Assembly (NCBI GenBank): GCA_951213105.1 | Contig: OX578152.1 | Location: 97,997,068 to 98,061,067 of the forward strand | Length of the DNA stretch: 64,000 nucleotides | Direction of reading: 5' to 3' | DNA from: Amaurobius ferox | Lineage: Eukaryota > Arthropoda > Arachnida > Araneae > Amaurobiidae | Shown here: piece after piece, positions 44,918-60,602 of the stretch | Layout: every line of letters starts with the position of its first letter | How positions within the stretch are numbered: the first letter of the stretch is position 1 | Position numbers and translations under genes: made by a program | Notes under the pieces: model-generated | The model's database searches: none | The model's input: only the letters and a program-made list of their open reading frames with translations | What the model was told of the DNA's origin: nothing

Positions 44918-44921
44918 ATTA

Positions 44922-45677
44922 TTATGGTTCATTTTTGTCCAACTCGGGTTGTATGTCGATAGGATCATTTTTACCCAACTCGGGAGGTATGTCGACAGGT
45001 TCATAGTGTATCACAAATCTATTACATATGTTTGTCAGAAGGATGCAAACCAGCTTTTTAAAATGGAGTTCGTAAAAGGTATCTGAGAGCAATTGGGCTT
45101 TATAAGTCATGAGGTGACAAAGATCTATACGATCCAGATTTTTCATAATAAAATCTTCGTTAAAGGTTTGCCATTGAACAATTCTACCCCATTCAAGGTA
45201 ATCTGCAAATTCCATCATAAAATCTTCAGTGAGCTTTTGTTTGACGCAAATGAGTTCCAAATCGATTTTGTCTATATGCCGACGAATAAATTCTTCTGAG
45301 AGTACTTGGAATTGAGAAACCATTCTCCAATCTAATTTGGAAGCATGTTTATCCAGGAAGGGTTCTGACATTATCTGATATCTGGAAACTACTTCCCAAT
45401 CTAAATATTCAGTATTTCTGTCCATGAAATCCTCTGATAGAACTTGATATTTGGATGTATAGTACCAGTTTAATAGACCTTTGTGTTTTTCTACAAAAGG
45501 CTCCGAAAGCTTCTGATACTGAGAGATGACCATCCAGTTTACCAAACCTTCGAATTCTTCGATAAACTCTTCCGATAAAGTTGAATATTGACTTATGAGC
45601 GACCAGTTAACATAATTTTTACTAACTCTGATTTGTTCTTCCGACAAACCGCTTTTTGATATTTCGTTCCACGCCAT
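44922..45677 (-). CDS. 23-residue repeat protein (LSEEF...W..IS.YQ type)
   Basis: 251 residues, of which about 12-205 are eight units of 23 residues with the pattern (S/T)E.F......(L/V)(N/D)W..IS.YQ.L. Such repeats occur in proteins of giant viruses and phages and probably form a helical solenoid; the function is not known to me. The tail has two copies of a DIPPELGKNDP-like acidic unit. It follows the fibre-like gene by 19 nt, and ATATAATAA touches the ATG. With that gene it forms a unit closed by hairpin H2. A virion or attachment role is plausible from position only. Confidence 0.7.
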   Translation of the reverse strand: MAWNEISKSGLSEEQIRVSKNYVNWSLISQYSTLSEEFIEEFEGLVNWMVISQYQKLSEPFVEKHKGLLNWYYTSKYQVLSEDFMDRNTEYLDWEVVSRYQIMSEPFLDKHASKLDWRMVSQFQVLSEEFIRRHIDKIDLELICVKQKLTEDFMMEFADYLEWGRIVQWQTFNEDFIMKNLDRIDLCHLMTYKAQLLSDTFYELHFKKLVCILLTNICNRFVIHYEPVDIPPELGKNDPIDIQPELDKNEP

Positions 45678-45696
45678 TTATTATATGTACAATTTT

Positions 45697-46539
45697 TTAC
45701 GGCAGCTGGAGTGTCCATTTGATTTCTTCAATTTTTAGAAATGGTTGAACTGTGAACTCAGCATCACATCGTAAGAAAATTTTCAATTGGTCATCTTTTT
45801 TAACCTCTCCGAGAATTAACACGAATTCAGTGGCTACTTTTATCTTGTGAACGTACTGCTTGCTATTAATGTATAACTTAACAACGATTAATTCATCGAT
45901 TATCTTTTGAGGATCAAGGTACAATCCCAGTCTAAAAAAACCGCCCCGAGAGAATTTACATTCTGAGTTCAAAGCATCACCGGAAAACTTCGTAAAAATA
46001 ACAGCATTCGCATTGGTACTAGGTCTAATAGTAATGTATCCTGATGTGGTGGTTGCATAACATACTTTATTGTCAACATAGTTTTCCAAGTACTTTTTAT
46101 TAACCGCATTCATGTCTTCAATAGGGTCCGCGACATTACCTATCCTTTTACCTTTAGCGTCAATGGGTCTTCTATCATTTAATCTCAAGAATCTGTCATC
46201 TAATTTAGAAACACTATCAGCAATTTCACCTCTAAGAGCACTATCCAGATTTTTTATCCTTTCAGCTGTTTCACGAACAAAATTTAAGAAACAATCATTA
46301 AAATTGTTTTTACTGTCTTCAATGATTTGTCTTAAACAAAAGTAATTCTTTTCAAACTCTGTCTGAACAAAATGTTTAGTTGAAACATCCTGATCATCAA
46401 CTGGGTTGTGACAGTTTTTGAGCACCTTATTTTCCATATCATAATTCCCATCGTCTGTGAGTTTAAACCCTATTCCAGGTGGACCGCGAAGACCCACTGC
46501 TTTTCTAGGGTAGTATATCCCAAAAGGAAACCAAGCCAT
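45697..46539 (-). CDS. fibre-like protein with collagen-type and tail-fibre motifs
   Basis: 280 residues. After a short N-terminus comes GLRGPPGIG (16-24), a collagen-like turn. Two copies of a motif known from phage tail fibres and collars follow (about 35-61, NPVDDQDVSTKHF; and 127-155, DPIEDMNAVNKKY), separated by a helical, coiled-coil-like stretch (62-126). The C-terminal 120 residues are rich in beta pattern and could be a trimeric knob. By analogy with adenovirus fibre it may bind a receptor; this is inference, as no family match can be run. ATAATAAAG touches the ATG, and hairpin H3 lies just upstream, marking the end of the capsid unit. Confidence 0.6.
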   Translation of the reverse strand: MAWFPFGIYYPRKAVGLRGPPGIGFKLTDDGNYDMENKVLKNCHNPVDDQDVSTKHFVQTEFEKNYFCLRQIIEDSKNNFNDCFLNFVRETAERIKNLDSALRGEIADSVSKLDDRFLRLNDRRPIDAKGKRIGNVADPIEDMNAVNKKYLENYVDNKVCYATTTSGYITIRPSTNANAVIFTKFSGDALNSECKFSRGGFFRLGLYLDPQKIIDELIVVKLYINSKQYVHKIKVATEFVLILGEVKKDDQLKIFLRCDAEFTVQPFLKIEEIKWTLQLP

Positions 46540-46559
46540 CTTTATTATTATAAATAAGT

Positions 46560-46585
46560 TTTTAATAGATCGTAATCTATTAAAA
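46560..46585. terminator. 3' hairpin H3
   Basis: Stem TTTTAATAGAT (11 bp), loop CGTA, 20 bp beyond the stop of the major capsid gene (minus strand). Confidence 0.8.
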
Positions 46586-46605
46586 TCTAAAGTAATCTAT
46601 TGAGT

Positions 46606-47958
46606 TCACATCCTTAAAGTATTCAACATTGTGATCTTCTTTTCTGCCATATTGAGTTTGCATCTCTTTCTCTCGATCAAAACAAAGTAAAATACATACT
46701 TCTTATTCTGGGGGCTGCTCTTCAGTCTCCAGTGAAATTCAATCATCAGGTTGCTAACATTTACGTACGGCTCGTGAAAAGATAAGTTGAAGCATATGAT
46801 TGGATAGAGACTTCTGAAGGTTTCATAGTTGATGAGACATCCGGTCTCGGAAGTGAGATTGTTAAGTCCTGCATCTAAGAGAGCAGCGTAGAGTCTCGAA
46901 TAATCTTTTTTCACAAAGTCCATAGTATAGTTGATGTTTGGCACCCTCACGTTATTGACCATAAGCCAGCAATCAATCATGTCTAAGTTATCAAACAGCA
47001 TGTTGTTTTGAGAAAAGTTTTCGTTTCTTTCATCATATTGGGGCACAACGTAAAGGCTCATAACTTCATCAGTCGTGGCGGGTATGTTGCATGATCCGCT
47101 GCTATTTTCTAAAATGTTGGATTTGACTACTCTCGGTTGCCTCCAGTTAAGGTCGATGGATTGGTCCGACAGAATCAATTTTGTAAACTGACCATCAACA
47201 GAAGAATTGAATTTAACATAAGGTAGCCAAAGCGAAAGTTTCTTGACTTGTACTTTATAATTAGGATTTTGTGCATTTGTATACAGCATGTTCTTGTGAC
47301 TGTTTCTTTGAAACTGAAATTTTACGTCAAAGCCTGTAATGACTTTTTCATAATCTTTGAGGAAGCCGAAAATGTATTTGAGTGGTATAAATATGTGCAC
47401 AGACTGACTATCTCGGGTATATATCCATCTTTTGGCAAAACCTTCGTTACGCTCATCATTCACTCTTAAGTTAGCGAAAAAATTTGTTATTGTTGTAGCA
47501 TCGGTGAGGGCACCGTTAAACTTGAACGACCCTCTCTCGGCAGAATCAGAGGTATCTATATAGTAAAACATATTGGTCGCTTCCGAAGTTGTATAATCAG
47601 GTGTGAAGTTAATTAAACCCATAACCTGAAGCATCAAGGATGTTTCATGCACATCTGAATCTATCTCGTATGCACCGACGGTCATGATACTTCTCCTGAG
47701 TAAACCTCCACCATTCACCAATGTCACGTTCTCTTCCCCTACAGAATCTCCGTTTCCTTTTACGACTCTGAGTTCTTGGTGAATATATCCTTTGGAGTAG
47801 AGAATTTTAGCGTTTGTGTCGAGTATGTGAAAGTTATACGTGGCATCTTCACTCGTATCCTGAGTGCTGTGCGTTTCTTTAATTTCTCTGTACTCAAAAC
47901 TTTCTATGTCTCTGATGACGTCTTCTGACGTTTGTTTTAATTCCCAAATATTGTTCAT
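46606..47958 (-). CDS. MCP: major capsid protein (double jelly-roll, hexon-like)
   Basis: 450 residues. The N-terminal pattern is that of Polinton major capsid proteins: a strand (NFHILDTN), a tyrosine-rich strand with a Gln/Glu-Leu-Arg-Val core (about 58-66), then NVTLVNGGGLLRRSIMTVGAYEI (in pieces about 77-100), which corresponds to the 'vtLvNn..hlFsri' segment. Two jelly-roll domains forming pseudo-hexameric trimers of an icosahedral shell are known for the family. Length is within the family range. It is last in the minor capsid - small basic - MCP unit closed by H3. The motif ATATAATAAAG precedes the ATG directly. No break is seen. Confidence 0.85.
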   Translation of the reverse strand: MNNIWELKQTSEDVIRDIESFEYREIKETHSTQDTSEDATYNFHILDTNAKILYSKGYIHQELRVVKGNGDSVGEENVTLVNGGGLLRRSIMTVGAYEIDSDVHETSLMLQVMGLINFTPDYTTSEATNMFYYIDTSDSAERGSFKFNGALTDATTITNFFANLRVNDERNEGFAKRWIYTRDSQSVHIFIPLKYIFGFLKDYEKVITGFDVKFQFQRNSHKNMLYTNAQNPNYKVQVKKLSLWLPYVKFNSSVDGQFTKLILSDQSIDLNWRQPRVVKSNILENSSGSCNIPATTDEVMSLYVVPQYDERNENFSQNNMLFDNLDMIDCWLMVNNVRVPNINYTMDFVKKDYSRLYAALLDAGLNNLTSETGCLINYETFRSLYPIICFNLSFHEPYVNVSNLMIEFHWRLKSSPQNKKYVFYFVLIERKRCKLNMAEKKITMLNTLRM

Positions 47959-47978
47959 CTTTATTATATGCAGTAAAA

Positions 47979-48209
47979 TTATTTTCGCTTCATATTCTTT
48001 GCAAGGATAGCTTCTAATTTATCTTCATTCACTACTTTTAAGCCTGCGCCTCTTCGAATGGATTTATTAAGGATTGACTCCAATTTACTATTCACTGCTT
48101 GCTGCACCTCTTGTTCAACCTCTTTCATAGCTACGTTCAAAAGCTTTCTCCCAAAGAAGCCTCGGCCTTGTATCCTCTTGCTTGCTCCGTAAAGTCTATG
48201 TCTGTTCAT
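47979..48209 (-). CDS. small basic virion-type protein with adenain-like site
   Basis: 76 residues, strongly basic, with a predicted helix in the middle. IQGRG at residues 13-17 fits the adenovirus protease consensus (M/I/L)XGX-G, so the element's own protease may cleave it. Glycine-arginine patches (GRGFFGRK, RRGAG) recall small core or cement proteins of adenoviruses, but I cannot assign a homologue. It lies between the two capsid genes, 24 nt after the penton-like gene and 20 nt before MCP. ACAATAAATG contains its start. Confidence 0.6.
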   Translation of the reverse strand: MNRHRLYGASKRIQGRGFFGRKLLNVAMKEVEQEVQQAVNSKLESILNKSIRRGAGLKVVNEDKLEAILAKNMKRK

Positions 48210-48233
48210 TTATTGTAAGTACAAAAATTTTCT

Positions 48234-48923
48234 TCACTCCACCAACAACCTGTAAAGAACTCTCTGATTATTGAGGTTAATTGGTACACCGTCCTGATTG
48301 GTCAGACGCATCCTGATCCTGTATACGTGGTTACTCTTTGTCTTAAAAAAGATGGGTCTGTCAAAATCTTTAGAGAGCAAACTACCTGGCTCTTGCGCCG
48401 GCGTGAAAGAATGGATAACTTCCGATGCAAATTGGTTCAAATAAGCGCCCTCTATTATATCGCAATGGATATGAATATCATCGACGCTTCTAGAGATGTT
48501 AGCCACGTACTTGGCTTCTTGTTTCACTTCTTCGTAAACCTTTGGTTCAAATCCTAAAATCTCATGAAGCTTACTCTTCGATAAATCAAGCATGTAGTGT
48601 TCTTTCAGTTTTATCACAAATCTCTGTCGAGCGAATATCACGCCAAACTGTATGGGAGGACTTTCGTTCCTGAAGTATGTCGTCATGTAATCGTTTAGCT
48701 CCCCCAGAGTATAATTTCCATCAGGAATAGTTAGATCATGCCAAAGGCTGCCATCGTAGAATGAAAGCTTGTTGTTCTCGTAGGCCTTGCAAATGTTGTA
48801 CCATGAAACCCATAAGGAAAAAGATTGCAAAGCAACCTTCTTGATCTTCAGAGGCGTAGCGTATTCGACAGTAAAGTCTTCTGATTTTGGGTAGTCTTTT
48901 GAGTTTAATATAAGCAGAGTCAT
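48234..48923 (-). CDS. minor capsid protein (penton-like, single jelly-roll)
   Basis: 229 residues matching the pattern of the Polinton minor capsid protein: an N-terminal SKDYP strand, IPDGNYTLGELNDYM (about 67-81), LGFEP, IHCDIIEGAY.N (about 153-164), a SFTPAQEPGSLL segment and a C-terminal RIRMRLTNQDGVPINL (205-220). In the family it forms pentons at capsid vertices. It heads the capsid unit; TATAATAAAATG contains the start, and hairpin H4 separates it from the upstream protease unit. Confidence 0.82.
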   Translation of the reverse strand: MTLLILNSKDYPKSEDFTVEYATPLKIKKVALQSFSLWVSWYNICKAYENNKLSFYDGSLWHDLTIPDGNYTLGELNDYMTTYFRNESPPIQFGVIFARQRFVIKLKEHYMLDLSKSKLHEILGFEPKVYEEVKQEAKYVANISRSVDDIHIHCDIIEGAYLNQFASEVIHSFTPAQEPGSLLSKDFDRPIFFKTKSNHVYRIRMRLTNQDGVPINLNNQRVLYRLLVE

Positions 48924-48942
48924 TTTATTATAAGCATTTTTT

Positions 48943-48974
48943 TTATTTTAATAGGCTTTGACCTATTAAAATAA
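48943..48974. terminator. 3' hairpin H4
   Basis: Stem TTATTTTAATAGG (13 bp), loop CTTTGA, 13 bp beyond the protease stop. Confidence 0.85.
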
Positions 48975-48987
48975 CACGCATGCTTCA

Positions 48988-49488
48988 TTAAAGTAGCACT
49001 TTCTTCTCATTATGATCACTTGGTTCTTGAGTTAGGGAGTACAAGATGTCCCAAGGATGGTGGCCTCTATTTCTCTTTTTTATGTATGCCATACTGAAGT
49101 AGCCACAGCGGTCAGATGTGGGTTTCTGCAGGAAGCTTGAATTGTATCGAACTTCCTTATTTGATGATCTCAGGTAGCGAAATATGTTTGCTGGGATAAT
49201 GACATCCTTTAAAGGAATATTGTTATATTTGTAGTCTCCGAATGAATCAAAATATTCTACAAAATTATTATGTGGATCGTTGTAGTAGGCCACCCAATGA
49301 GTACCAGGCCCTGTCGACAAGTCTAAATTAATTATTCCACTTTCAAACTTTCTCATCTTTTTGGGTAGCATGTCAGATGTGAAGACGCCACGAAACCCTT
49401 TCTCACCATTCATACATTCCTCGATCAGATTGTTCGAGATTCCCAGTTTTGTAGAACGCCTTTCCCCTTTTTTTTCTTTCCCTTGCAA
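48988..49488 (-). CDS. PRO: adenain-like cysteine protease (C5 family); start unresolved
   Basis: It would process virion proteins. In the open frame the catalytic set is H64 (GTHWVAY), D81 (YFDSFG), Q121 and C128 (DRCGYF); the spacings H to acid (17) and Q to C (7) equal those of adenovirus protease. The frame has no ATG before codon 26 (49411-49413), which lies within the conserved N-terminus; it opens after a TAA only 5 codons before a TTG at 49486-49488. It overlaps the preceding small virion gene by 64 nt in the -1 frame, at AAAAAAG. So it is made by -1 frameshifting, by non-AUG initiation, or from the ATG at codon 26, or the A run holds an indel. Hairpin H4 follows. Confidence 0.8.
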   Translation of the reverse strand: MQGKEKKGERRSTKLGISNNLIEECMNGEKGFRGVFTSDMLPKKMRKFESGIINLDLSTGPGTHWVAYYNDPHNNFVEYFDSFGDYKYNNIPLKDVIIPANIFRYLRSSNKEVRYNSSFLQKPTSDRCGYFSMAYIKKRNRGHHPWDILYSLTQEPSDHNEKKVLL

Positions 49489-49808
49489 CCGGATCCGCTC
49501 ACTTTATCCATAATCTTTTTAGCTCCCCATCCAGCTGCCCCCGAAAGAGCACCGGTAGCCAAAGTGGTGAGAATGGGGATAAGAAAAGGCAAGAATCCAC
49601 CATTTTTCTCCAGTTGTGTTTTGCTGATCTTTATGCGTTTGCCCTTCTTTAGTTGCTCGATCTGTGTTTGAGTAAGATATAGATCATGATTTGGCGCCTT
49701 GGAGGTATTGATCTGTAAAGTGACCTCCTCTTTTTTCTTGTGTGCAGTCTTTAACTTGTTGATCTGATGATCACTCAGATGTACTTTTGTTTTAACGTAG
49801 TTACTCAT
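49425..49808 (-). CDS. small hydrophobic-basic virion protein
   Basis: 127 residues. The N-terminal half (VHLSDHQINKLKTAHKKK, then LYLTQTQIEQLKKG) has two 'hl(S/T).qQi.kl' helices. GGFLPFLIPILTTLATGALSG (about 70-90) is a hydrophobic Gly-rich segment, and the C-terminus is a Lys/Gly stretch. The layout is common among Polintons and adintoviruses and has been compared with membrane-active or core proteins of adenoviruses; the exact role is unknown. ATATAATAAATG contains the start. Its 3' end overlaps the protease frame and carries A_AAA_AAG at 49467-49473 in its own frame. Confidence 0.7.
   Translation of the reverse strand: MSNYVKTKVHLSDHQINKLKTAHKKKEEVTLQINTSKAPNHDLYLTQTQIEQLKKGKRIKISKTQLEKNGGFLPFLIPILTTLATGALSGAAGWGAKKIMDKVSGSGCKGKKKKGKGVLQNWESRTI
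49467..49473 (-). promoter_or_regulatory. possible -1 frameshift heptamer A_AAA_AAG
   Basis: Part of an A8 run, in the correct phase of the upstream frame. The nearest stem (CTCGA / TCGAG) begins about 29 nt further on, too far for a classical stimulator, so the signal is weaker than the one at 52367. Confidence 0.4.
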
Positions 49809-49834
49809 TTATTATATGCAGAGAAAAATTTTCG

Positions 49835-50638
49835 CTAGCTCAAAAACTTTGCGTAGTAGCTTTTTACAAAATCATTGGTTAGCTCACCCTTTTTTAAAAG
49901 CGTATCCAACAGAGTAACGATTTTATTGTAGAGCTTTTTACTTTTACTCCCACTACATCTTTTATCCGTCAGCCGCGAAAGCAGCTCCATCCCATCGATA
50001 CCCTCGCCTGTATAATAATGTCCATCCCTGAGTGTTTTGAGTGCTTTTGTATAGTTCCTCATCATTTGAATTTTGTGGTTATACTTGGCCAACTCTTTTC
50101 TTAAATATTCTTTCCTATCTCCATTATCTTCTGTGACGTTCATCCATTCTTTCTTTATAGGCCCTTTTCTAGTTCCGAATTCTTTATTTCTGTCGTTGGC
50201 ACGTTTTATGATTTCATTCAGCTCGCCCTCACTTTTGCTCACTAATTCTGAAGGCAATTCAAAACCCTCTTTTCTGATGAAAGACTCGTCTAGATCCTTA
50301 TTTAAGTTTAAATTATAAATCGTGCGCTCCAAATCTTTTATTCCATATTCTAATTCAGGAATTCTTGTGGATTCTAACGATGGAATGGATATTTCCTGCA
50401 TTACATCCTGAACAGCTTTATGAACAGCTTTCATTTGCTCGTTTCTCGATACTTCCTGCTGAGCCAACTGTTCGGTCACAGGCTTATGAAACTCTGTTAA
50501 CGTTTCTCGAACACCTAATTTGTCTTGAAGCTGCTGCTCGTTTTTTCTTCTGAGATCTTTTTGTAACTCACCCAATCTTTTTTGGGCTAGTATCTGCCCC
50601 TTTATCTTTTCGATGCGTTCCTTCTCTAATTGATTCAT
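49835..50638 (-). CDS. coiled-coil virion-associated protein
   Basis: 267 residues. Residues 1-120 are charged and heptad-like (long coiled coil). The C-terminal part has YYTGEGIDGMELLSRL (about 207-222) and a KKLYNKIVTLLDTLLKKGEL segment, the pattern of a protein that recurs in Polintons next to the protease and capsid genes. The role is not established; scaffold or core is a guess. It is the first gene of the minus-strand unit and is divergent from the ATPase. GTAATAAAG touches its ATG. Confidence 0.65.
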   Translation of the reverse strand: MNQLEKERIEKIKGQILAQKRLGELQKDLRRKNEQQLQDKLGVRETLTEFHKPVTEQLAQQEVSRNEQMKAVHKAVQDVMQEISIPSLESTRIPELEYGIKDLERTIYNLNLNKDLDESFIRKEGFELPSELVSKSEGELNEIIKRANDRNKEFGTRKGPIKKEWMNVTEDNGDRKEYLRKELAKYNHKIQMMRNYTKALKTLRDGHYYTGEGIDGMELLSRLTDKRCSGSKSKKLYNKIVTLLDTLLKKGELTNDFVKSYYAKFLS

Positions 50639-50740
50639 CTTTATTACTTGACAAATAAATGTTTGCCTTAAAGTAAATGTTTTTGCTTTAAAGCAAATAT
50701 TTTTGCCTTAAAGTAAATGTTTTTCACCCTAAATAAAGAT
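50639..50740. promoter_or_regulatory. divergent promoter region with 20-bp repeats
   Basis: Between the divergent coiled-coil and ATPase genes lie three tandem units like AAATGTTTTTGCCTTAAAGT (from about 50657), including the palindrome TTTGCTTTAAAGCAAA. AATAAA-type start motifs face both ways (GTAATAAAG leftwards, CTAAATAAAG rightwards). Confidence 0.6.
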
Positions 50741-51490
50741 ATGATTCGAATAAAGAATTACACGCAACCTGAAGAGTTTGCATATGCTGATCAGCATCCT
50801 CTGCTACCCAAACATCCCTTCAGACTCTTAATAACCGGACCCTCAGGGTGTGGTAAAACAAACTTGCTTCTTAACTTCATCTACGATTGGTTGAAGTTTG
50901 ACAATCTCTACGTATGTGCTAAAGACATCTTTGAGCCCAAGTATTCATCTCTACAAGAAACATACACGCAGTTTAATGATATAGAGGAAGATGATATTCT
51001 AAACCTTAAAAAAGTTAAGAAGGCTGATAAAGAAAAATTTTTAGAAATGTTTCACAAGTTCAAGAAGGAAACATTATTCACGTCAGAGTTGAGCGATTTC
51101 ATAACAGTGGATGAACTTGATCCTAGCGTTAAGAATCTAGTTGTATTCGATGACTGCGTGACTGAAAAGAAGCAAAAAGTCATAGAGGACCTATTCATAA
51201 GAGGTAGAAAGAAAAATGCGTCCATCATCTATATATCTCAATCATATTACTCAACACCCATCAACATACGCAAGAACTGTAACTACTTTATCTTCTTTCA
51301 ACTCCAACCAAGAGAGGTTAAACAAATCCTGCGAGAAATCGATGGTAGTCTCACCAGCGGGGAGTTCAATAGTATGTACAAAACGTGTGTCACGAAACCT
51401 CATAATTTTTTTATGCTTGATTTAGTTAACCCTGAAATGAGGTATAGGAAATGTTTTGATCCTTTAAATAAAACATGGAACAAAAATTAG
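50741..51490 (+). CDS. ATP: A32/FtsK-HerA-like packaging ATPase
   Basis: 249 residues from the ATG at 50741, which I prefer to the in-frame ATG at 50717 because the motif CTAAATAAAG ends 2 nt before it. Walker A GPSGCGKT is at residues 33-40, Walker B LVVFDD at 133-138, and the sensor-like YISQS at 164-168. The family pumps viral DNA into capsids. It is the first of a four-gene plus-strand unit (ATPase, membrane protein, PLA2/zinc ribbon, integrase) closed by H5, and overlaps the next gene by 16 nt. No damage seen. Confidence 0.88.
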   Translation: MIRIKNYTQPEEFAYADQHPLLPKHPFRLLITGPSGCGKTNLLLNFIYDWLKFDNLYVCAKDIFEPKYSSLQETYTQFNDIEEDDILNLKKVKKADKEKFLEMFHKFKKETLFTSELSDFITVDELDPSVKNLVVFDDCVTEKKQKVIEDLFIRGRKKNASIIYISQSYYSTPINIRKNCNYFIFFQLQPREVKQILREIDGSLTSGEFNSMYKTCVTKPHNFFMLDLVNPEMRYRKCFDPLNKTWNKN

Positions 51491-51855
51491 AGTCATGGTT
51501 GTACGTATACAGAAAGAGCTACAAATTCTACAGTGATGTTAGTCTGTCTCTGACAGTTGCCAAGTTCTTGTTTGGTACTTCGAGTTTGACTGCTTTCGCT
51601 CTACTTCCCCTAGCATCCTTGAGCATCGTGGTCAGTGTCATAGAGATTATTGATAAATCCTTGCATATCTCAGAACGGAAAGAAGAATACAAGTTTACCT
51701 ACAAGTTTTATAAGTCTTTACTCAATTCCTTGAGAGCAAAGACTGTTTCGGAGGAGGAGGCTTTGATTAAAGAGCAAGAATTTATAAAGGACTTGCAGTA
51801 CTTCCCCATGGAAAAATATTTGAAGAAGAAAGGTTTGAACGGGTACGAAAAATAA
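51475..51855 (+). CDS. small membrane protein of Polinton type
   Basis: 126 residues with one long or two closely spaced hydrophobic stretches (about 24-60, rich in Leu, Ala, Ser), followed by a charged helical part ending FPMEKYLKKKGLNGYEK. Position between the ATPase and PLA2 genes suggests a virion or packaging role, but no family name comes to mind. TTTAAATAAAAC lies directly before the ATG, inside the ATPase 3' end. Confidence 0.6.
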   Translation: MEQKLESWLYVYRKSYKFYSDVSLSLTVAKFLFGTSSLTAFALLPLASLSIVVSVIEIIDKSLHISERKEEYKFTYKFYKSLLNSLRAKTVSEEEALIKEQEFIKDLQYFPMEKYLKKKGLNGYEK

Positions 51856-51872
51856 TTTTACATTCTTAATAA

Positions 51873-52388
51873 ATGAGCAAACACGATACAAAAAAGAAGA
51901 TTAAAGGTGGAGATTTAGTCGGTTGGATGCAAGATAAGCTCAATCCACCAGAAATGCACCTTCCTGGTTATCAGTACTGTGGACCTTTTACAAAGCTTTC
52001 TAAAAGATTGACTAGAGGGGATCCAGGAGTTAACAGAGTAGATAAAGCATGCAAGAAGCATGACATAGCATACAGTCAAACAAAAGACACTAGACAGAGA
52101 CATGTTGCAGATGAAGAGCTTTTAAAGGATCTAGCCACCATTGAAAACCCAAACAGCGGATTTTATCCACTCGGAGAAAAACAAGCAAGGGTTGTGATCC
52201 GACCAATCATAAAAACCAAAAAAGTTTTTGGACTGGGTTCTATTGTGACATACTGCTTGATTTGTAAAAAGAAGACAGGCACACTAAAGGTTGAAAATTC
52301 GGTGACAAGCAACGGAAGGCCTGTTATGAAAGGTGAATGTGAAAAGTGTGGGTCAAGGAAAAGTTCTTTTTTAAAGTTGACGGGGTAA
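51873..52388 (+). CDS. parvovirus-type PLA2 domain joined to a CxxC zinc ribbon
   Basis: 171 residues. YCGPFTKL (35-42) corresponds to the calcium loop and DKACKKHDIAYS (57-68) holds the His-Asp pair (H63, D64) of phospholipase A2; ADEELL follows, as in the parvovirus VP1 unique region, where the enzyme opens endosomal membranes. The C-terminal part has C128-x2-C131 and C156-x2-C159 around NGRPVMKG, the pattern of the DUF5679 zinc ribbon. TTAATAAATG contains the start. The last 49 nt overlap the integrase frame and carry the slippery site TTTTTTA, so the protein may also be made as a longer -1 frameshift product with integrase. Confidence 0.8.
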   Translation: MSKHDTKKKIKGGDLVGWMQDKLNPPEMHLPGYQYCGPFTKLSKRLTRGDPGVNRVDKACKKHDIAYSQTKDTRQRHVADEELLKDLATIENPNSGFYPLGEKQARVVIRPIIKTKKVFGLGSIVTYCLICKKKTGTLKVENSVTSNGRPVMKGECEKCGSRKSSFLKLTG

Positions 52389-53413
52389 CTCAGAACACCC
52401 CTAAACTGAGAGCTGTGTACTATGATCCTGAAACTGGATATTGCGGCATCACGGAGCTTGAGAGGAAGGTGCATGTTCCTAGAAAGGACATCGAAGAGTT
52501 CTTACACCAGCAAGATGTTTACACCAAACATAAACCACTTATCCGTAAATTCAAAAGGAGGAGAACTTACGTTTCACACATTGATGACCAATGGCAAGCA
52601 GACTTGTTATTTTTAAAGCCATTATCAAGTTCTAATGATGGCAAAAACTACTTACTAACAGTCATAGACATTTTTAGCAAATATGGTTGGGCTATACCAG
52701 TTCGCAGGAAAACGGGTGAGGAAGTTACTATGGCGTTTAAAAAGATCTTTAAGGAAAGAATTCCTGAAAAAATTCAGACAGACAAAGGGACCGAGTTTAT
52801 TAACAAAGAGACGCAACAACTGTTTAAAGAGAATAATATTCACTGGTTTACTACTGAAAACGTCGAAATCAAATGCTCCGTTGTGGAGCGTTTTAACAGA
52901 ACTTTAAACGGTAAAATTAGGAAATACTTAGCGGCTAACAATACAAATAGATACGTAGATGTCTTGGATCAATTTGTGAAGAATTACAACAACTCATACC
53001 ACAGAAGTATCAGAATGACACCCTCTGAAGCCAGTCTAGAAGAAAACAGTGGCGATGTGTATCACAATTTGTTTAAAGAAAAGGTCATACATAAACCCAA
53101 ATACCAGGTAGGAGATAAAGTAAGAATATCAATATATAAGTCTACCTTCAGAAGGGGTTATCAAGCAACTTTTACAGAAGAAATATTCGTCATTTCTGAA
53201 GTGTTAGAAACCGACCCAATCACTTATAGAGTAAAGGACTCAAACAATGAAGAGGTGAAAGGTACCTTTTATGATAATGAACTGGTGAAGTATGATAAGA
53301 AAGACGATGTGTATAAGATTGAGAAAATAATCAGAAAGAAAGGGGACAAGTATCTAGTGAAATGGTTAGGCTATCCTGAGACCAGTTGGATCCATAAAAA
53401 CGATCTTCTTTAA
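52340..53413 (+). CDS. INT: retrovirus-like integrase with chromodomain; likely -1 frameshift expression
   Basis: The frame opens at 52340 after a TGA; counted from a GTG at 52346 it has 355 codons. Catalytic residues are D86 (QADLLF), D146 (QTDKGTEF) and E181 (VVERFNRT). An N-terminal AVYYDPETGYCG segment is present, so the domain is complete, and a chromodomain ends the protein (323-355, with YLVKWLGY and W347). In Polintons the enzyme inserts the linear DNA with 6-bp duplications. There is no in-frame ATG until after residue 120. The frame is -1 to the PLA2/zinc-ribbon gene, which ends 48 nt downstream of the opening, and a slippery heptamer with a possible pseudoknot lies in the overlap. 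Non-AUG start, splicing or a homopolymer indel are the alternatives. Confidence 0.88.
52367..52410 (+). promoter_or_regulatory. candidate -1 programmed frameshift signal (slippery site plus pseudoknot)
   Basis: T_TTT_TTA at 52367-52373 is in the right phase of the PLA2 frame. After an 8-nt spacer, GGGGT (52382-52386) can pair with ACCCC (52397-52401), and CTCAG (52389-52393) with CTGAG (52406-52410). The pairs interleave, as in an H-type pseudoknot: stems of 5 bp each, loops of 2, 3 and 4 nt. The zero-frame stop TAA (52386-52388) lies within it. Confidence 0.65.
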
Positions 53414-53417
53414 ATTT

Positions 53418-53448
53418 ATTTTTAATAGCTGTCAAAGCTATTAAAAAT
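53418..53448. terminator. 3' hairpin H5 between converging genes
   Basis: Stem ATTTTTAATAGCT (13 bp), loop GTCAA. It begins 5 nt after the integrase stop and lies 32 nt before the end of the converging zinc-ribbon gene. Confidence 0.85.
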
Positions 53449-53479
53449 TCACGTCCTCACCACACCTAGTTGAACTTTC

Positions 53480-53971
53480 CTAGTAAGCCCATTTTAAAGC
53501 ATTGAAAATGACTCTACAGATTTCTTCATTTTGGGTAAGCGTTTTCTTCATTTTAGGCAACTTAAGTGGGGTCTGATAACCCCTTTTCCGGAGCAAATGA
53601 AATAGAATGTATTCTTTGCTGATTAGGTTTTTTCGCTCTGGGAACATCTCTTCATATTTATGGCTAAAAGAACAAAAGTCTTCCAATAGCTCTTCTTCAA
53701 AAGGAATGTGGTACTCAGTGAGCCATGCAGATAGAGTTTTCATTCGATGTTTTCGCCTCTCTTGGATCTGCTTGTTTCTATAAAGATCGAGCAGATCAAT
53801 AGGAGGCTCATTGGGATTATACCTCAGCTCCTCACCACATGTTGTGCAAACATACCAGCCATCATCATTTTTTCTCACATCTTCATGCTCACATTCTCGA
53901 GCTCCTCCGTCTGATGCAACTTTCATGTCTAGACCTAGCATTCTTATTACTTCGAACACTTCCTTCATCAT
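53480..53971 (-). CDS. VLTF3/TFIIB-like zinc-ribbon transcription factor
   Basis: 163 residues. A zinc ribbon is formed by C27-x-H29 and C42-x2-C45 (DGWYVCTTCGEEL). The rest (about 80-132, IPFEEELLEDFCSF then PERKNLISKEYILFHLL) has the pattern of the late transcription factor VLTF3 of large DNA viruses and of cyclin-fold TFIIB-like proteins. In poxviruses VLTF3 is needed for late genes with TAAAT(G) promoters, which fits the start motifs of this element's virion genes. Its own start has TATAATAAAT just before ATG. Assignment rests on pattern only. Confidence 0.6.
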   Translation of the reverse strand: MMKEVFEVIRMLGLDMKVASDGGARECEHEDVRKNDDGWYVCTTCGEELRYNPNEPPIDLLDLYRNKQIQERRKHRMKTLSAWLTEYHIPFEEELLEDFCSFSHKYEEMFPERKNLISKEYILFHLLRKRGYQTPLKLPKMKKTLTQNEEICRVIFNALKWAY

Positions 53972-54010
53972 ATTTATTATAGTAAGTCTTCCTTTTAACT
54001 GCTTTTAAAT

Positions 54011-54070
54011 TTGATGGTACCCCTTCGATATTTTAAGCATTTAAAGAAACACATTTAGTATATAAATAGA
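54011..54070 (+). promoter_or_regulatory. right-class promoter block E1
   Basis: CTTCGATATTTTAAGCATTT, then AAAGAAACACATTTAG and TATATAAA (54059-54066), 12 nt before the ATG at 54079. Shares 'tttgatggtaccccttcga' with E3. Confidence 0.7.
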
Positions 54071-54078
54071 AGAAGAAC

Positions 54079-54342
54079 ATGAGTGTTTACGTAGAAATTT
54101 ACACGCGTTTAGATGATATACAAGCTCTATATTCCCATGTAGGTGGTGAAAAAATGTGTGCATTAGCTTATGTATGCGAAAATTTGACAGAAGTTCTAGA
54201 AAGTCTCGGTAACAATCACCCTACAGTATTCAGTGATGTGTACGATTTTTTATTGAGTCGCATTCATGAAATGGTTGAGATAGCCCATAATGACATTTTA
54301 GATGAACTGTATGACTATGTTGTGGCGCTAAATTTGGAATGA
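54079..54342 (+). CDS. small acidic helical protein, unknown
   Basis: 87 residues, acidic, Leu/Val/Glu-rich, probably all helical, with no signal peptide or membrane segment. I do not recognise a family. It is likely real because it has its own promoter block (E1) of the same type as KilA-N and PolB and a hairpin (H6) two nt after the stop. Being in the replication-side group it could be a regulator or host-modifying early protein, but nothing in the sequence proves that. Confidence 0.6.
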   Translation: MSVYVEIYTRLDDIQALYSHVGGEKMCALAYVCENLTEVLESLGNNHPTVFSDVYDFLLSRIHEMVEIAHNDILDELYDYVVALNLE

Positions 54343-54343
54343 T

Positions 54344-54377
54344 AAGTTTTAATGGTTTTTAACAATCATTAAAACTT
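54344..54377. terminator. 3' hairpin H6
   Basis: Stem AAGTTTTAATG (11 bp, extendable with a G.T pair), directly after the stop at 54342. Confidence 0.8.
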
Positions 54378-54382
54378 TACTC

Positions 54383-54431
54383 CCTCGATATTTTAAGCAC
54401 TTAAAGAGATGCATTTAGTATATAAATAGGA
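54383..54431 (+). promoter_or_regulatory. right-class promoter block E2
   Basis: CTCGATATTTTAAGCACTTA, AAGAGATGCATTTAG, TATATAAA (54419-54426); 20 nt before the KilA-N ATG. Confidence 0.7.
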
Positions 54432-54446
54432 ACGTAAGCGAAGAAA

Positions 54447-54995
54447 ATGTCTCTGATCGATGTATGTTATGAACAAATCAAGGATAACTTTTACTATGGG
54501 TTATTTGGCGACTTTAAACTCGTGATTGACAAAAACACGGGTTGCTTCAACGCCACGAAACTATGTCAGTCGGGAGGGAAACAATTCTCACATTGGACTC
54601 GACTCGAAAAGTCGAAAAGCCTGAAAAAGTTCTATGAAAGTAAAAGCTGCCCTCCACATGTGGAGGGTAGCTTTTACGAGATAAGAGAGCAAAACAACAG
54701 CGAAGTAAATAAGCAGATTACTGGACAGTATGTCCCTAAGGAATTTATCCTCGAGATCGCCTCCTGGATCTCACCAAAGTTCTACTTCCAGTGCAACAGG
54801 GTCATCCTCAATTACTTTGTAAATGAATATAAGACGATGGACAAGAATGAGTTTGAAATGAAGCTTAAGGAAATCGAGGATCAAATGAAAAGGGTTATTT
54901 TTGAGACAGATGCGATCCAACAGAAGCTTGAAATTTCAGTCGAGGACCGTGCACCCCAGCCTGCAAAAAAGGATAAGCGGGTCCTGGTAGGTTAA
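54447..54995 (+). CDS. KilA-N domain protein (intact copy)
   Basis: 182 residues. KilA-N is a DNA-binding domain of large DNA viruses and phages. Residues about 20-115 carry the core: VIDKNTGCFNATKLC, HWTRLEKSKSL, FYEIREQNN, ITGQYVPKEFILEIASWISP. A coiled-coil tail (130-160) may dimerise it. Two partial relatives are in the element (43822-44308 and 59547-59606), so the gene has multiplied. A 38-bp palindrome (54640-54677) lies within the coding sequence at the point encoding SCPPHVEGSF. It has promoter block E2 and hairpin H7. It may be a regulator of the element or of host genes; the target is unknown. Confidence 0.85.
   Translation: MSLIDVCYEQIKDNFYYGLFGDFKLVIDKNTGCFNATKLCQSGGKQFSHWTRLEKSKSLKKFYESKSCPPHVEGSFYEIREQNNSEVNKQITGQYVPKEFILEIASWISPKFYFQCNRVILNYFVNEYKTMDKNEFEMKLKEIEDQMKRVIFETDAIQQKLEISVEDRAPQPAKKDKRVLVG
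54640..54677. repeat. 38-bp palindrome inside the KilA-N gene
   Basis: Arm GTAAAAGCTGCCCTCCACA, no loop, all 19 positions paired with one G.T. The left KilA-N copy has a palindrome at the same place with different inner arms. Confidence 0.9.
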
Positions 54996-55000
54996 GTTTG

Positions 55001-55030
55001 CGTTTTAATGGATTAATAACCATTAAAATG
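55001..55030. terminator. 3' hairpin H7
   Basis: Stem TTTTAATGG (9 bp plus two outer pairs), loop of 8, six nt beyond the KilA-N stop. Confidence 0.8.
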
Positions 55031-55039
55031 TTGCTTGTC

Positions 55040-55105
55040 TTTTAAATTTGATGGTACCCCTTCGACATTTTAAGCATTTAAAGAGAAGGGTTGCAGTATA
55101 TAAAG
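55040..55105 (+). promoter_or_regulatory. right-class promoter block E3
   Basis: TTTGATGGTACCCCTTCGAC, ATTTTAAGCATTTAAAGAGA, and TATATAAA (55097-55104) only 2 nt before the PolB ATG. That is too close for a classical TATA box driving this ATG. Confidence 0.7.
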
Positions 55106-55106
55106 C

Positions 55107-58100
55107 ATGGATTTTCAATCGAAAACCGTTCGGCAGTTGCAAGACTACTGTCGGGAACATAATATTCGAGGATACTCGAAACTTAAAAAGGCGGAACTGA
55201 TAGCCCTCATTCATCCAATTGATTCATTCTCAACGAATCATAACGGCCTATCCAGTTTCCACGATGACTTGTTCAGCAAGCAAAAGAAGAACAGAGTGCA
55301 GCTGTACAGGTGTTGCGGTAAGTTATTTAAGGAATCTAGCATAGATAAGCACTTGCAAACTAAAGCTCATCGAAACTATAGACCAAAGAAGGCCTCTCAG
55401 AAGGAGGACCACAGAGATGATTTTGACAACATACAGAGCCTGCATCACATGACCATCAACCAACTACGTGATTTTTGTCGAACGCGTGGTATCAGAGGCT
55501 ATTCCATGTTAGGAAGGAAGGCAGACATCATAGCATACATAGAAAGCGTATTGTTCAACCGTCACTTCCAATTCGATCCCGACCTGTTTTCAGATTCGCG
55601 AGAGAGAAGGCTATATACACCCCTTGAAGTTGAGACAGCATTTGAGTCTCGGCTGAAGACGTACGACATCCCAAACGAACACAATCTGATGCTTCCCAAA
55701 GACTTTTTGAATGATGTTTCACCACTTGTTCGGGGTCTCATCACTAAATATCTGAAGAGGCTGCATGGCCTGAAGGTCAATTTTCAGTTCCTCTGCGACT
55801 ATGCAAAAGCAAAAGATGGAAAGGTGGAAGAAATGGAGAAAAACTTCAAAACACAAAATGAAGTCATCTTAGAATCCACTGATTTGGTAGATTATTACAG
55901 ATCAGTTATCCAAAAGTTACTGACAGAAATGGAGGAGTTTGTTGCAAGGGGCTCAGGGTGGACGCTTGCCAGAATCAAAAGCCTTGAGGTAAGGATCAAT
56001 AAATACAACCCGCTGAGAGGAGCATCCTACATCGATCTGCCGAAAAAGATTAAGGCTAAAAAGGCAGTCATAAACGTGCAAAATGAGGATAATAAGTGTT
56101 TCATGTGGGCAATACTCTCTGCACTGCACCCAGCGGAAAAAGATGCCCAAAGAGTCACCAAATATAAACCGTATGAGAATGAGCTAACGTTTGAAGGCAT
56201 TGAGTTTCCTGTGAAGATGGAAGATAGAGTATTTAACAGGTTCGAAAAGTTGAATAACATATCGGTGAACATATATTCATACGAAGGTAATGATATTTAC
56301 CCATTGAGAATCACTAAAAATAAGGAAGACACACACGTCAATTTGCTGTACATAAAGAATATGGAAGGAAACAGTCATTACTGTTGGATAAAAGACATGT
56401 CAAAATTGATAAGTGCTCAATTATCTAATCGTGATGGTAGAGTATATCCCTGTGATCGATGTCTGTTAATTTATCGCTCTGAGGAAGATCTTCAAGCTCA
56501 TGAAACGGATTGTAGGAAGAATACACCAGTAAAGATTGTAATGCCCAAGGAGGACGAATCTCTGCGGTTCAAAAACTACCAAAGGTCTTTACGATTACCC
56601 TTTGTGATGTACGGAGACTTCGAGTGCTTGACAAACAAGATAAACACCTGCCGCCCTACAAAAGACAGCTCATTCTTACATAAATATCAAAAGCATGAAC
56701 CTATGAGCTTCACTGTCTACATCAAATATAAACACGCAGACTATAAGGCACCAATCACATACAGAGGACCCAATGCCGCCAAGCTGTTCTTTGATACAGT
56801 GAAGACTGAGGCGCTAGCGATAAAGAACATTTATGATAAGAAGCAACCCATCAAAATGACCGCCGAAGATGAAGAGCATTTCCAAAGGACCCATGTTTGC
56901 CATATCTGTGACGGAGATATCAGGAAGAAACCTTCACCCTATTCACCCAAGGATGAACCAGACTTCCGAAAAGTCAGAGATCATGACCATCTTCTCGATC
57001 CGGCGAAATGTGAATCGAACTACAGAGGACCTGCTCACAACCTTTGCAACCTAAAGTACCAAGAGCCTTCGTTCATTCCGGTGTTTATCCACAACCTATC
57101 TGGCTACGACGCCCATCTCTTCATAAAGGAGCTCGGTGGGGAGAAAGGAGACATTGATGTCATTCCGAACAACGAGGAGAGGTACATTTCCTTCAGTAAG
57201 GAGGTCGGGGCAAAAACTGTAGAAGTAGGCGATGGGAAGAAAGTAAAGGTACCTGGTATAAAGTTGAGGTTTGTCGACTCATTCAAGTTCATGGCCGCTA
57301 GCCTCGACAGTCTTGCGAAGAACGTAAAGGAGTTCAGGGAGACAGCCAAGTACTTCCCCATGGACAAGCTAGACCTCGTCACCCGAAAAGGCGTCTATCC
57401 ATACGATTATATGGACTCGTGGGACAAATGCGAAGAAACCAAGCTACCCCCACAAGAAGACTTTTACAACCAACTGAATGAGTCACACATAAAGAATGAG
57501 GACTACGAGCACGCTAAAACGGTATGGAATGCATTCAACATTAAGACATTGGGTGAATATTCCGATTTGTATGTGAAGACTGATGTACTCATCCTAGCCG
57601 ACATCATGGAACACTTTAGAGATGTCTGTCTAAAGACCTATAAGTTGGATCCTGCATGGTACTTCACTGCACCTGGACTCTCGTGGGACGCCATGCTCAG
57701 AACCACGAAGGTCGAGCTAGAGCTGTTGACAGACTATGACATGATACTCATGCTAGAAAAGGGGACCAGAGGAGGCATCTCTCAGTGCTGTAACCGCTAT
57801 GGGAGGGCGAACAACAAGTACATGAAGGACTATGACGAGAACAAGAAGTCTAACTACCTGATGTACCTTGACGCCAACAACCTTTACGGATGGGCCATGA
57901 GTCAATACCTACCGCATGGTGGTTTCAAGTGGAGCACTGTGTCAGATGTGACCCAAGCAGCGGATGACTCAGACACAGGATACATCGTAGATTGCGACCT
58001 ACAGTACCCGACCCATCTACACAACCTCCATTCAGACCTACCTCTAGCACCTGAGAGCAGGATGCCCGATGGCTCAAAACAGCTAAAACTACTGACGACC

Positions 58101-59063
58101 CTCTATGACAAAGAGCATTATGTGGTTCATTACAGGGTTTTGAAGCAACTGTTGAATTTGGGGATGAAGCTCAAAAAGGTGCACAAAGTGTTGGAGTTTC
58201 AGCAGTCTCCCTGGTTGAAGAGGTACATCGACCTGAACACAGAAATGAGGACCAAGGCAACCAATGACTTTGAGAAAGACTTCTTCAAACTTATGAACAA
58301 CTCGGTCTTTGGCAAGACGATGGAAAATATCAGGAAGCGACTCGATATTAGGCTAGTATGCGATCCCCAGAAAGCGGAGAAGCTAGTTGCTAAGCCCAAC
58401 TTCAAGGGAAGGACCATTTTTGACGAAAGATTAGCCGCCGTGCATATGAACAAGACGAAAGTGATTTTTAATAAGCCAATATACGTCGGCATGAGTATAT
58501 TAGATCTATCGAAGCATCTGATGTATGACTTCCATTATAATCTTATGAAGCCTAAATACGGGGACGATATCAAGCTATTGTACATGGACACTGACAGTTA
58601 CATCTATGACATACAGACCGAGGACTTTTATGAGGATATGAAAGGATTGATTGACTACTTTGACACATCAGATTATCAGGAAAATAATAGATATGGAATG
58701 CCTCGAGTAAATAAAAAGGTCTTGGGGAAGATGAAGGATGAGAATGCAGGGAAGATCTTGGAAGAGTTCGTTGGCTTAAGATCTAAGATGTATGCCTGTA
58801 AAACTGAAAAAGAGCTCATTAAAAAGTCAAAGGGTGTTAAGAAATGTGTAGTGAAAAATAGGATATCTTTCGGGGACTATAAAAGCTGTTTGTTCTCACA
58901 GGAAGTACACTACAGGACCATGAATCTCATCAGGAGCACAAAGCATGAGATTCATTCCATACAAGTTAATAAGATCGCCCTATCAGGTAAAGATGACAAG
59001 CGTCATATATTGGAAGATGGTATCCATACCTTGGCCTTGGGGCATTACACAATTCAAAAATAA
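55107..59063 (+). CDS. POLB: protein-primed family B DNA polymerase (pPolB)
   Basis: 1,318 residues. It would copy the linear element by protein priming from the TIR ends. N-terminal parts: a SAP-like motif (1-36), a C2H2-type finger (C69/C70, H82, H88), a second SAP-like motif (113-146), a conserved region with NKCFMWAILSALHP (329-342), and a second finger-like set (C449, C452, H465, C469). Exonuclease: YGDFE (D504, E506), N663/D668, Y822/D826. An HNH-like set, C598-x2-C601, DHDH (625-628) and HNLCN (644-648), sits inside it, as usual in Polintons. Polymerase: LDANNLYGWAMSQ (921-933), KLMNNSVFG (1061-1069), YMDTDS (1159-1164). All key residues are present and the frame is intact. It has promoter block E3 and hairpin H8. 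Confidence 0.95.
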   Translation: MDFQSKTVRQLQDYCREHNIRGYSKLKKAELIALIHPIDSFSTNHNGLSSFHDDLFSKQKKNRVQLYRCCGKLFKESSIDKHLQTKAHRNYRPKKASQKEDHRDDFDNIQSLHHMTINQLRDFCRTRGIRGYSMLGRKADIIAYIESVLFNRHFQFDPDLFSDSRERRLYTPLEVETAFESRLKTYDIPNEHNLMLPKDFLNDVSPLVRGLITKYLKRLHGLKVNFQFLCDYAKAKDGKVEEMEKNFKTQNEVILESTDLVDYYRSVIQKLLTEMEEFVARGSGWTLARIKSLEVRINKYNPLRGASYIDLPKKIKAKKAVINVQNEDNKCFMWAILSALHPAEKDAQRVTKYKPYENELTFEGIEFPVKMEDRVFNRFEKLNNISVNIYSYEGNDIYPLRITKNKEDTHVNLLYIKNMEGNSHYCWIKDMSKLISAQLSNRDGRVYPCDRCLLIYRSEEDLQAHETDCRKNTPVKIVMPKEDESLRFKNYQRSLRLPFVMYGDFECLTNKINTCRPTKDSSFLHKYQKHEPMSFTVYIKYKHADYKAPITYRGPNAAKLFFDTVKTEALAIKNIYDKKQPIKMTAEDEEHFQRTHVCHICDGDIRKKPSPYSPKDEPDFRKVRDHDHLLDPAKCESNYRGPAHNLCNLKYQEPSFIPVFIHNLSGYDAHLFIKELGGEKGDIDVIPNNEERYISFSKEVGAKTVEVGDGKKVKVPGIKLRFVDSFKFMAASLDSLAKNVKEFRETAKYFPMDKLDLVTRKGVYPYDYMDSWDKCEETKLPPQEDFYNQLNESHIKNEDYEHAKTVWNAFNIKTLGEYSDLYVKTDVLILADIMEHFRDVCLKTYKLDPAWYFTAPGLSWDAMLRTTKVELELLTDYDMILMLEKGTRGGISQCCNRYGRANNKYMKDYDENKKSNYLMYLDANNLYGWAMSQYLPHGGFKWSTVSDVTQAADDSDTGYIVDCDLQYPTHLHNLHSDLPLAPESRMPDGSKQLKLLTTLYDKEHYVVHYRVLKQLLNLGMKLKKVHKVLEFQQSPWLKRYIDLNTEMRTKATNDFEKDFFKLMNNSVFGKTMENIRKRLDIRLVCDPQKAEKLVAKPNFKGRTIFDERLAAVHMNKTKVIFNKPIYVGMSILDLSKHLMYDFHYNLMKPKYGDDIKLLYMDTDSYIYDIQTEDFYEDMKGLIDYFDTSDYQENNRYGMPRVNKKVLGKMKDENAGKILEEFVGLRSKMYACKTEKELIKKSKGVKKCVVKNRISFGDYKSCLFSQEVHYRTMNLIRSTKHEIHSIQVNKIALSGKDDKRHILEDGIHTLALGHYTIQK

Positions 59064-59080
59064 ACCATGGGACAGTTTTA

Positions 59081-59109
59081 AACTTTAATGGTCATTAACC
59101 ATTAAAGTT
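59081..59109. terminator. 3' hairpin H8
   Basis: Stem AACTTTAATGGT (12 bp), loop CATTA, 17 nt after the PolB stop; also lies beyond the 3' end of the primase fragment on the other strand. Confidence 0.85.
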
Positions 59110-59132
59110 AACGGAAGTTCATGTCGACTGGT

Positions 59133-59549
59133 TCAAGGAGTTATGGAGAGGGTGGCAATGTCTGGAATGATGGTTAGGAGCTGCGGTAGTCTGTCCTCCA
59201 CCTCTTCATCTGGGCATCCCTGCAGCTCCTTCTTGAAGCAACTCGCAAGCGAGATCTCCTCTCGGTTGTGGTTGTAGACCCTTGTGACCTTGTAGGGTTT
59301 GTTGTTGCCCTCTTTTGAACTGCCGTACAGGAGCCAGCACTTGGAGCTCACATCATCGATGAGAGTAGAGGGTTTATCGGTGATGTTGGTAAACAGGCCG
59401 AGGTTATCGACCTCCTCCCTGACCTGGCTGAGCAGAGTGTGTTTGATCGCGTGCTTGGAGAGGAAGATGTGCGGGAAGTGCAGGTGAAACCCGTTCTTGA
59501 GCGTGGTTTTGCCCTGGGTGCGGTCAGAGACGGAGAGCGGCTTCTCCTA
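59133..59549 (-). pseudogene. fragment of a D5-like (AEP) DNA primase
   Basis: An open frame of about 138 codons without an ATG, starting after a TAG near 59550. It contains KNGFHLHFPHIFLSKHAIKH and, further on, KCWLLYGSSKEGNNKPYKVT, the pattern 'GfHlhFP ... WLlYGSsK...Y.lt' of the primase part of D5-like primase-helicases in large DNA viruses. The metal-binding start and the helicase are absent, so it is a remnant. It is visibly richer in G+C than its surroundings, and its upstream edge abuts a KilA-N fragment on the opposite strand. Primases of this type are not part of the usual Polinton set, so transfer from another virus is likely. Confidence 0.65.
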
Positions 59550-59606
59550 TGTGATCAGAGAGCAAAATAATGATCCTCTCAACAAACAGATTACTGGTCA
59601 GTACGA
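59547..59606 (+). pseudogene. KilA-N fragment (about 20 codons)
   Basis: The translation VIREQNNDPLNKQITGQY matches the core of the two other KilA-N copies (EIREQNNDPLNKQISGQY in the left one). Homology starts where the 3' arm of the KilA-N palindrome would end, and on the other side of that point lies the primase fragment. It stops after GQY. Confidence 0.75.
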
Positions 59607-59710
59607 ATACACAGCGGCATCTTTTAGTTTCAAAATATTTTATTAAGCTTTTGGACCTTGACATGCTAGTCGGACTGACTTCGCAGCCTCAACAGAACGG
59701 TTGTTGTTTA

Positions 59711-59739
59711 TATTATAATGGTTTAATACCATTATAATA
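59711..59739. terminator. 3' hairpin H9
   Basis: Stem TATTATAATGGT (12 bp), loop TTAAT, 5 bp beyond the stop of the minus-strand gene ending at 59744. Confidence 0.8.
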
Positions 59740-59743
59740 AAAT

Positions 59744-60040: not shown

Positions 60041-60057
60041 GGTTTTTTGTTCTCTTT

Positions 60058-60596: not shown

Positions 60597-60602
60597 AACA
60601 TT

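Follow-up and report, generated by a model that had tools for sequence, protein, structure and literature searches.

Retroviral gag-pol expression involves −1 ribosomal frameshifting, which at sites of the HIV-1 type occurs on a U_UUU_UUA heptamer, and bacterial IS elements make their transposase by −1 frameshifting as well. For viruses of the Polinton kind, slippery sites predicted with KnotInFrame have been proposed for the adintovirus Penton and Hexon-Adenain genes in a section of a speculative preprint (PMC11071296). Beyond that speculation, we found no earlier report of a frameshift at a Polinton integrase in the open-access literature searched, which agrees with the preliminary description of the locus studied here. 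According to the abstract of a further report, particles have not been observed for Mavericks (PMC8097293). Here we consider a Polinton of the spider Amaurobius ferox whose integrase is probably a product of programmed −1 ribosomal frameshifting on the heptamer T_TTT_TTA (52367-52373), judging from sequence comparison and RNA folding. From the sequence, this reading draws on the heptamer, its phase, the gene overlap, the stop positions, the missing ATG and the recurrence of the arrangement in three lineages; from folding, it draws on a pseudoknot and a hairpin, both predicted.

The element and its overlapping PLA2 and integrase genes

The window, which is the whole 64,000-nucleotide stretch analysed, carries one Polinton/Maverick element of 17.8 kb (42800-60596, no strand assigned) with AG...CT termini. 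A repeat search delimited its terminal inverted repeats (42798-43302 and 60094-60598; 505 nt, 100% identical), which are flanked by a 6-bp target-site duplication, AACATT (42794-42799 and 60597-60602). Pfam identified an A32-like packaging ATPase (PF04665, 6.2e-12), a protease of the C48/adenain/Ulp1 type (PF02902, 2.8e-4) and a double-jelly-roll capsid protein (PF21738, 5.2e-12). Where PolB is expected there is a 1318-aa ORF (55107-59060), for which neither Pfam nor PHROGs nor PDB sequences yielded a match to PolB; its motifs YMDTDS and DANNLYG, read by eye, we take to be PolB-like. Two further ORFs, 43816-44310 (+) and 54438-54995 (+), are alike and presumably KilA-N-like, again by eye. The other long ORFs of the Polinton are uninterrupted, and a tRNA scan returned none. 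Elsewhere in the window, an uninterrupted frame of 1976 codons (4544-10474, +) reads by eye like a gypsy-type gag-pol.

The two genes of interest lie on the plus strand. The upstream ORF (51873-52388; 171 aa), which defines the 0 frame, encodes a PLA2 domain (PF08398) followed by a C-terminal DUF5679 zinc ribbon (ZnR; PF18930), both assigned by Pfam. The downstream ORF (52343-53413) encodes an integrase with an RVE core (PF00665, E 1.9e-14) and a chromodomain match below the Pfam cut-off. It matched 13 integrase chains, retroviral ones included, and D87, D147 and E182 are its putative catalytic residues; the nearest named matches among those listed come from the spiders Araneus ventricosus and Trichonephila clavipes. 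The ORFs overlap by 46 nt, not the 48 nt first given, and the integrase is in the −1 frame, as had been described. The overlap contains the heptamer T_TTT_TTA (52367-52373, +), which keeps to the phase of the PLA2 codons (TCT TTT TTA AAG), conforms to the X_XXY_YYZ pattern of frameshift signals and is followed by an 8-nt spacer (52374-52381, +); the preliminary description had the coordinates and phase of the heptamer and the length of the spacer right. The PLA2 stop codon, TAA (52386-52388, +), falls inside a predicted pseudoknot and touches its first stem. The first integrase ATG is indeed far downstream, preceded by 129 codons and not the 120 initially counted. This ATG is codon 130 (52730) and lies beyond D87, the first Asp of the putative catalytic residues, which an integrase begun there would therefore lose. 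Counted over both strands, the 17.8-kb element holds 21 copies of TTTTTTA, from which simple arithmetic puts the chance of an in-phase copy within a 46-nt overlap at about 0.9%. Rfam gave no match within 52300-52500.

Recurrence of the junction in related copies and proteins

We collected copies of the junction from the Amaurobius ferox genome with two queries. With the integrase, 114 of 10,846 candidates were scored, comprising 41 family A copies at 98-100% identity, the window's own included, four family B copies at 83%, and a remainder at 75-86%, mostly 75-76% (family C); junction DNA was fetched for 110 of the 114. With PLA2, 150 of 2,113 candidates were scored, revealing a family D, from which 20 junctions were fetched, chosen for varied open-frame length. 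The T6A heptamer was found in 41/41 copies of A, 4/4 of B, 63/65 of C and 17/20 of D, the exceptions being L048 (T7) and L095 (T5) in C, and L143 (T7), L144 and L149 (both TTTTTTG) in D. Its presence in every family A copy rules out a sequencing or assembly error of the T run, a concern raised at the outset. Because the family B junction equals that of family A over 130 nt, the independent lineages number three (A, C and D); copies within a family are near-identical and not independent, and each family was counted once. The four B copies (L042-L045) combine a junction exactly like A with an integrase only 83% identical, a pattern that looks like recombination between Polinton lineages.

Searches with the junction context, using exact flanks so that worn copies went uncounted, found 350 places genome-wide for family C, where the gap was left free, and 464 for family D, copies already fetched included. 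By eye, T6A was present at 99 of 100 listed C places (the other was T5A) and at 94 of 100 listed D places, where the rest were four T5A, one T7A and one in which the final A was T. Copies with a T5 or T7 run giving one continuous frame had been named beforehand as evidence against frameshifting; such runs exist at a few of the listed places, 1/100 in C and 5/100 in D, beside the single A to T change, and one of the 20 fetched D copies (L143, T7) does read continuously.

Aligned across related copies, as the preliminary description had proposed, families A, C and D all have an in-phase heptamer, a PLA2 stop close downstream and, as far as read, no ATG ahead of the integrase core. Five family C copies were read; leaving aside the T7 copy L048, their PLA2 frame ends at the equivalent position and the −1 frame becomes open 3 codons ahead of TTT TTT. 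In family D the −1 frame likewise opens 3 codons ahead of TTT TTT, and the PLA2 stop is 6 nt past the heptamer in 12/20 copies; the register is −1 in 15/20, +1 in 4/20 and one continuous frame in 1/20 (L143). The distance from TTT TTT to the YY residues is 17 codons in A, 16 in C, and 8 or 10 in the six D copies measured; junction lengths thus differ among the lineages while the register stays. As read, there is no ATG upstream of the integrase core as far as codon 130 in A, or as far as 49-63 codons past YY in C and 93-96 codons past YY in D, so that a conserved downstream gene lacks its own start in the relatives too. All 41 family A integrase ORFs are open. The lineages are well separated: the PLA2 proteins of A and C are identical at 75/162 residues, and in the parts of both genes that were compared pS is 0.68-0.94 (saturated) and pN 0.20-0.37. 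If only a 0-frame xFL were kept, element codon usage gives a chance of about 0.027 per further lineage of retaining exactly T|TTT|TTA.

Protein records were used to look beyond this genome. Two integrase searches (best 120 of 2340 and best 120 of 4904) yielded 146 proteins; nine among the matches listed have, by eye, an FF start 6-20 residues ahead of YY[DN]. The integrase ORFs with enough residues were all (5/5) compatible with a 0-frame CGx[KR][KR]xxFL ending in TTTTTTA, although these five may include Amaurobius ferox itself, P0016 resembling family D. In the same two-frame test, internal FF sites passed in 1/21 cases (k=5) and 0/21 (k=6), and random peptides in 1732/20000 (k=5) and 191/20000 (k=6). 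A simpler test, for an A allowed after FF, proved weak, as A was also allowed at 16/21 control FF sites, and the stricter test was used instead. Nine of ten FF rows in the tree fall within one 18-row set (93/86) together with nine differently labelled rows, and FF integrases as a single clade were not upheld; P0089 lies elsewhere and may carry a chance FF, and the rows labelled as having their own start took that label from database ORF starts, which may be start-calling artefacts. A scan of IMG/VR viral contigs with the integrase and with a 24-row alignment found no relative.

One PLA2 search gave 47 proteins, 12 of them with a readable C-terminal ZnR, not counting P0068 (Araneus; ZnR, FS, then mid-integrase) and P0158 (cut in the ZnR). 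All 12 have FL followed by 0-28 residues at the end, including Caerostris darwini, Araneus ventricosus (two) and Centruroides sculpturatus (4/12); P0157 and P0159 have no residue after FL and may be truncated. Leucine occupies that ZnR position in 0/10 in-frame ZnR-integrase proteins and in 4/10 proteins with the ZnR elsewhere, so that the C-terminal-ZnR class is not alone in having L after F. The DUF5679 ZnR is a movable module: it precedes PLA2 in some proteins, follows PLA2 in others, and may also lie N-terminal to the integrase (seen in part of P0165-P0182 and in P0139). In-frame integrase fusions occur elsewhere with PLA2 (for example P0024, P0055, P0098), with the ZnR (P0139, Caenorhabditis briggsae) and with the protease (P0064, P0090). 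Fusion to an adenain-like protease is also what P0072, P0091, P0112, P0124 and P0133 look like; of these seven protease records, three were read over their whole length and four from the N-terminal part. The −1 product of the present junction would restore the ZnR-integrase order, and because the integrase is elsewhere fused in frame to PLA2, ZnR or protease, these sequences suggest that its linkage to virion proteins recurs.

Downstream RNA structure and alternative routes to the integrase frame

Frameshift signals also include an RNA structure that stimulates the slip and begins 5-9 nt past the heptamer. The preliminary description had placed here an H-type pseudoknot of two 5-bp stems, and both stems are found where it put them: GGGGT 52382-52386 with ACCCC 52397-52401 (stem 1, +) and CTCAG 52389-52393 with CTGAG 52406-52410 (stem 2, +; in A and B only). 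The stems of the predicted family A pseudoknot sum to -20.2 kcal/mol. Of 500 dinucleotide shuffles, 2 gave an equally good H-type pseudoknot at the right distance, as did 12 of 3944 positions sampled along the element, whereas a plain fold of the 42 nt there does not stand out (z -1.1). The pseudoknot did not hold across lineages. Family C has instead a predicted 9-bp hairpin with an outer GGGG/CCCC stem after the same 8-nt spacer; its two variants (z -3.1 and -4.1) are equalled in 2 and 1 of 200 shuffles, respectively, and in L048 two pairs are changed yet still paired (U-G to U-A, A-U to G-U). None of the six family D copies folded beats its shuffles (46-168 of 200 as good), and a pseudoknot search in two C and six D copies found none. 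The predicted structures thus support a frameshift signal in A and C and leave D unexplained.

Splicing, transcriptional slippage and a non-AUG start could each explain the missing ATG, and none of them explains the exact phase, the final A and the spacing together. The T run might be the polypyrimidine tract of a 3' splice site, with an upstream exon supplying the ATG and the frame. An AG does follow T6 (D: CTTTTTTAG; A: TTTTTTAAAG; in C only 9 nt later), and three Araneus ventricosus records (P0009, P0020, P0068) read as integrase joined to upstream exons. However, the distance to the acceptor AG differs among A, C and D, the codon phase in D is unlike that in A and C, and a pyrimidine tract requires neither an exact T6 plus A nor the PLA2 phase. 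The three Araneus records join at three places to different genes, like forced gene models, and the element's other long ORFs need no introns to be open. We consider splicing improbable. Transcriptional slippage on T6, by which some mRNAs would carry T7 and join the frames without a ribosomal slip, is a little harder to credit: all three lineages have the T run and some genomic copies have T7 (L048, L143 and the T7A place in the D listing), but T6 is short for slippage by RNA polymerase II, and such slippage requires neither the X_XXY_YYZ phase, nor the final A, nor a structure 8 nt downstream as in A and C.

The integrase might alternatively have its own start, at a non-AUG codon or through an internal ribosome entry site, and family A offers an in-frame CTG at 52406 (with A at -3) and a GTG at 52415. 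Across ten sequences, no near-cognate codon is common to A, C and D at one place. We accordingly discarded CTG 52406 as a start of general use, and this explanation appears less probable again than slippage during transcription. Least credible of all, and close to negligible, is ordinary frameshift decay of an in-frame PLA2-integrase gene. Relatives with in-frame fusions and the one fused D copy (L143) fit such decay, but it is contradicted by conservation: three lineages keep the same heptamer over hundreds of copies, and the 41 integrase ORFs of family A stay open at 98-100% identity. Programmed frameshifting has difficulties of its own. In family D the stimulator is unexplained: the six folded copies do no better than their shuffles, 12/20 stops lie 6 nt past the heptamer and 5/20 copies are without the −1 register. 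In family C, L095 (T5) and L048 (T7) depart from the heptamer.

Proposed expression of the integrase and comparison with known systems

Under programmed frameshifting, ribosomes would translate the PLA2/ZnR gene and most would end at TAA 52386-52388, releasing PLA2-ZnR. A minority would slip back one base on T_TTT_TTA while the predicted structure (pseudoknot in A, hairpin in C) impedes them, and would go on in the −1 frame to give PLA2-ZnR-integrase as a minor product, whose PLA2 part would bring the integrase into the virion. We infer all three of these steps, namely the slip, the minor product and the delivery of integrase into the virion by fusion to PLA2; the low amount and the packaging would follow the analogy of Gag-Pol.

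A second junction of the element may be of the same kind, and we offer it as a lead rather than a finding. On the minus strand, the protease ORF (48988-49503) is −1 to an overlapping upstream ORF of 127 aa (49425-49808), which has no PHROGs match and which we take, by eye, to be virion-core-protein-like; a candidate slip site, A_AAA_AAG, is at 49467-49473 (-), counted from the codons. In the A and B copies read, A_AAA_AAG is in phase in 9/9, with no protease ATG upstream of LGIS in the stretch read. C-type copies have an in-phase A_AAA_AAA in 9/10 (L128 had no match) and a protease-frame ATG in 7/10, followed in L126 by a stop. Against a slip site here, runs of A are to be expected from lysine-rich tails, and AAAACTGGGA might serve as a CTG start. 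As a separate observation, GKGV[LY]Q[NP]WE is found near the C-terminal end of P0156 (a PLA2-ZnR protein), of the 49425-49808 (-) ORF and of its family C counterpart; these proteins possibly share a tail. More tentatively, a gag-pro-pol logic can be imagined for a double-stranded DNA virus or transposon, in which the integrase (T_TTT_TTA), and perhaps the protease (A_AAA_AAG), would be minor −1 fusions to virion proteins, packaged at a fixed low ratio, and the integrase would enter the next cell ready-made, tethered to PLA2, whose part would be to open the endosome.

Should the slip take place, the expression logic of retroviral Gag-Pol has evolved in a lineage of DNA transposons for the same enzyme fold, and there is a concrete hypothesis for how Polinton integrase is dosed and enters particles. 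Frameshifting could also explain mis-joined gene models of these genes, and a single genome offers hundreds of junction copies in three lineages for study.

The element shares with described Polinton/Maverick elements (adintovirus, Eupolintoviridae) its integrase family, PLA2, ATPase and adenain-like protease; in other records, however, the integrase either stands as an ORF of its own or continues the frame of PLA2, ZnR or protease, whereas here the join is in the −1 register. The adintovirus proposal concerns slippery sites in the same kind of virus but in other genes, and section 16 of that preprint includes no integrase and no conservation test (PMC11071296). Bacterial IS elements are likewise mobile DNA with a recombinase as the frameshift product, but differ in their bacterial host, their A-rich heptamers and the lack of a virion protein. 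The sequence comparisons support a resemblance to the gag-pol −1 frameshift site of retroviruses, with the same heptamer, phase and 8-nt spacer, a predicted downstream structure, and a fusion that would join an upstream protein to an integrase-bearing one. Unlike gag-pol, the junction belongs to a DNA transposon or virus, has a PLA2-zinc ribbon protein in place of Gag upstream and an integrase without reverse transcriptase downstream, and its predicted structure varies by lineage.
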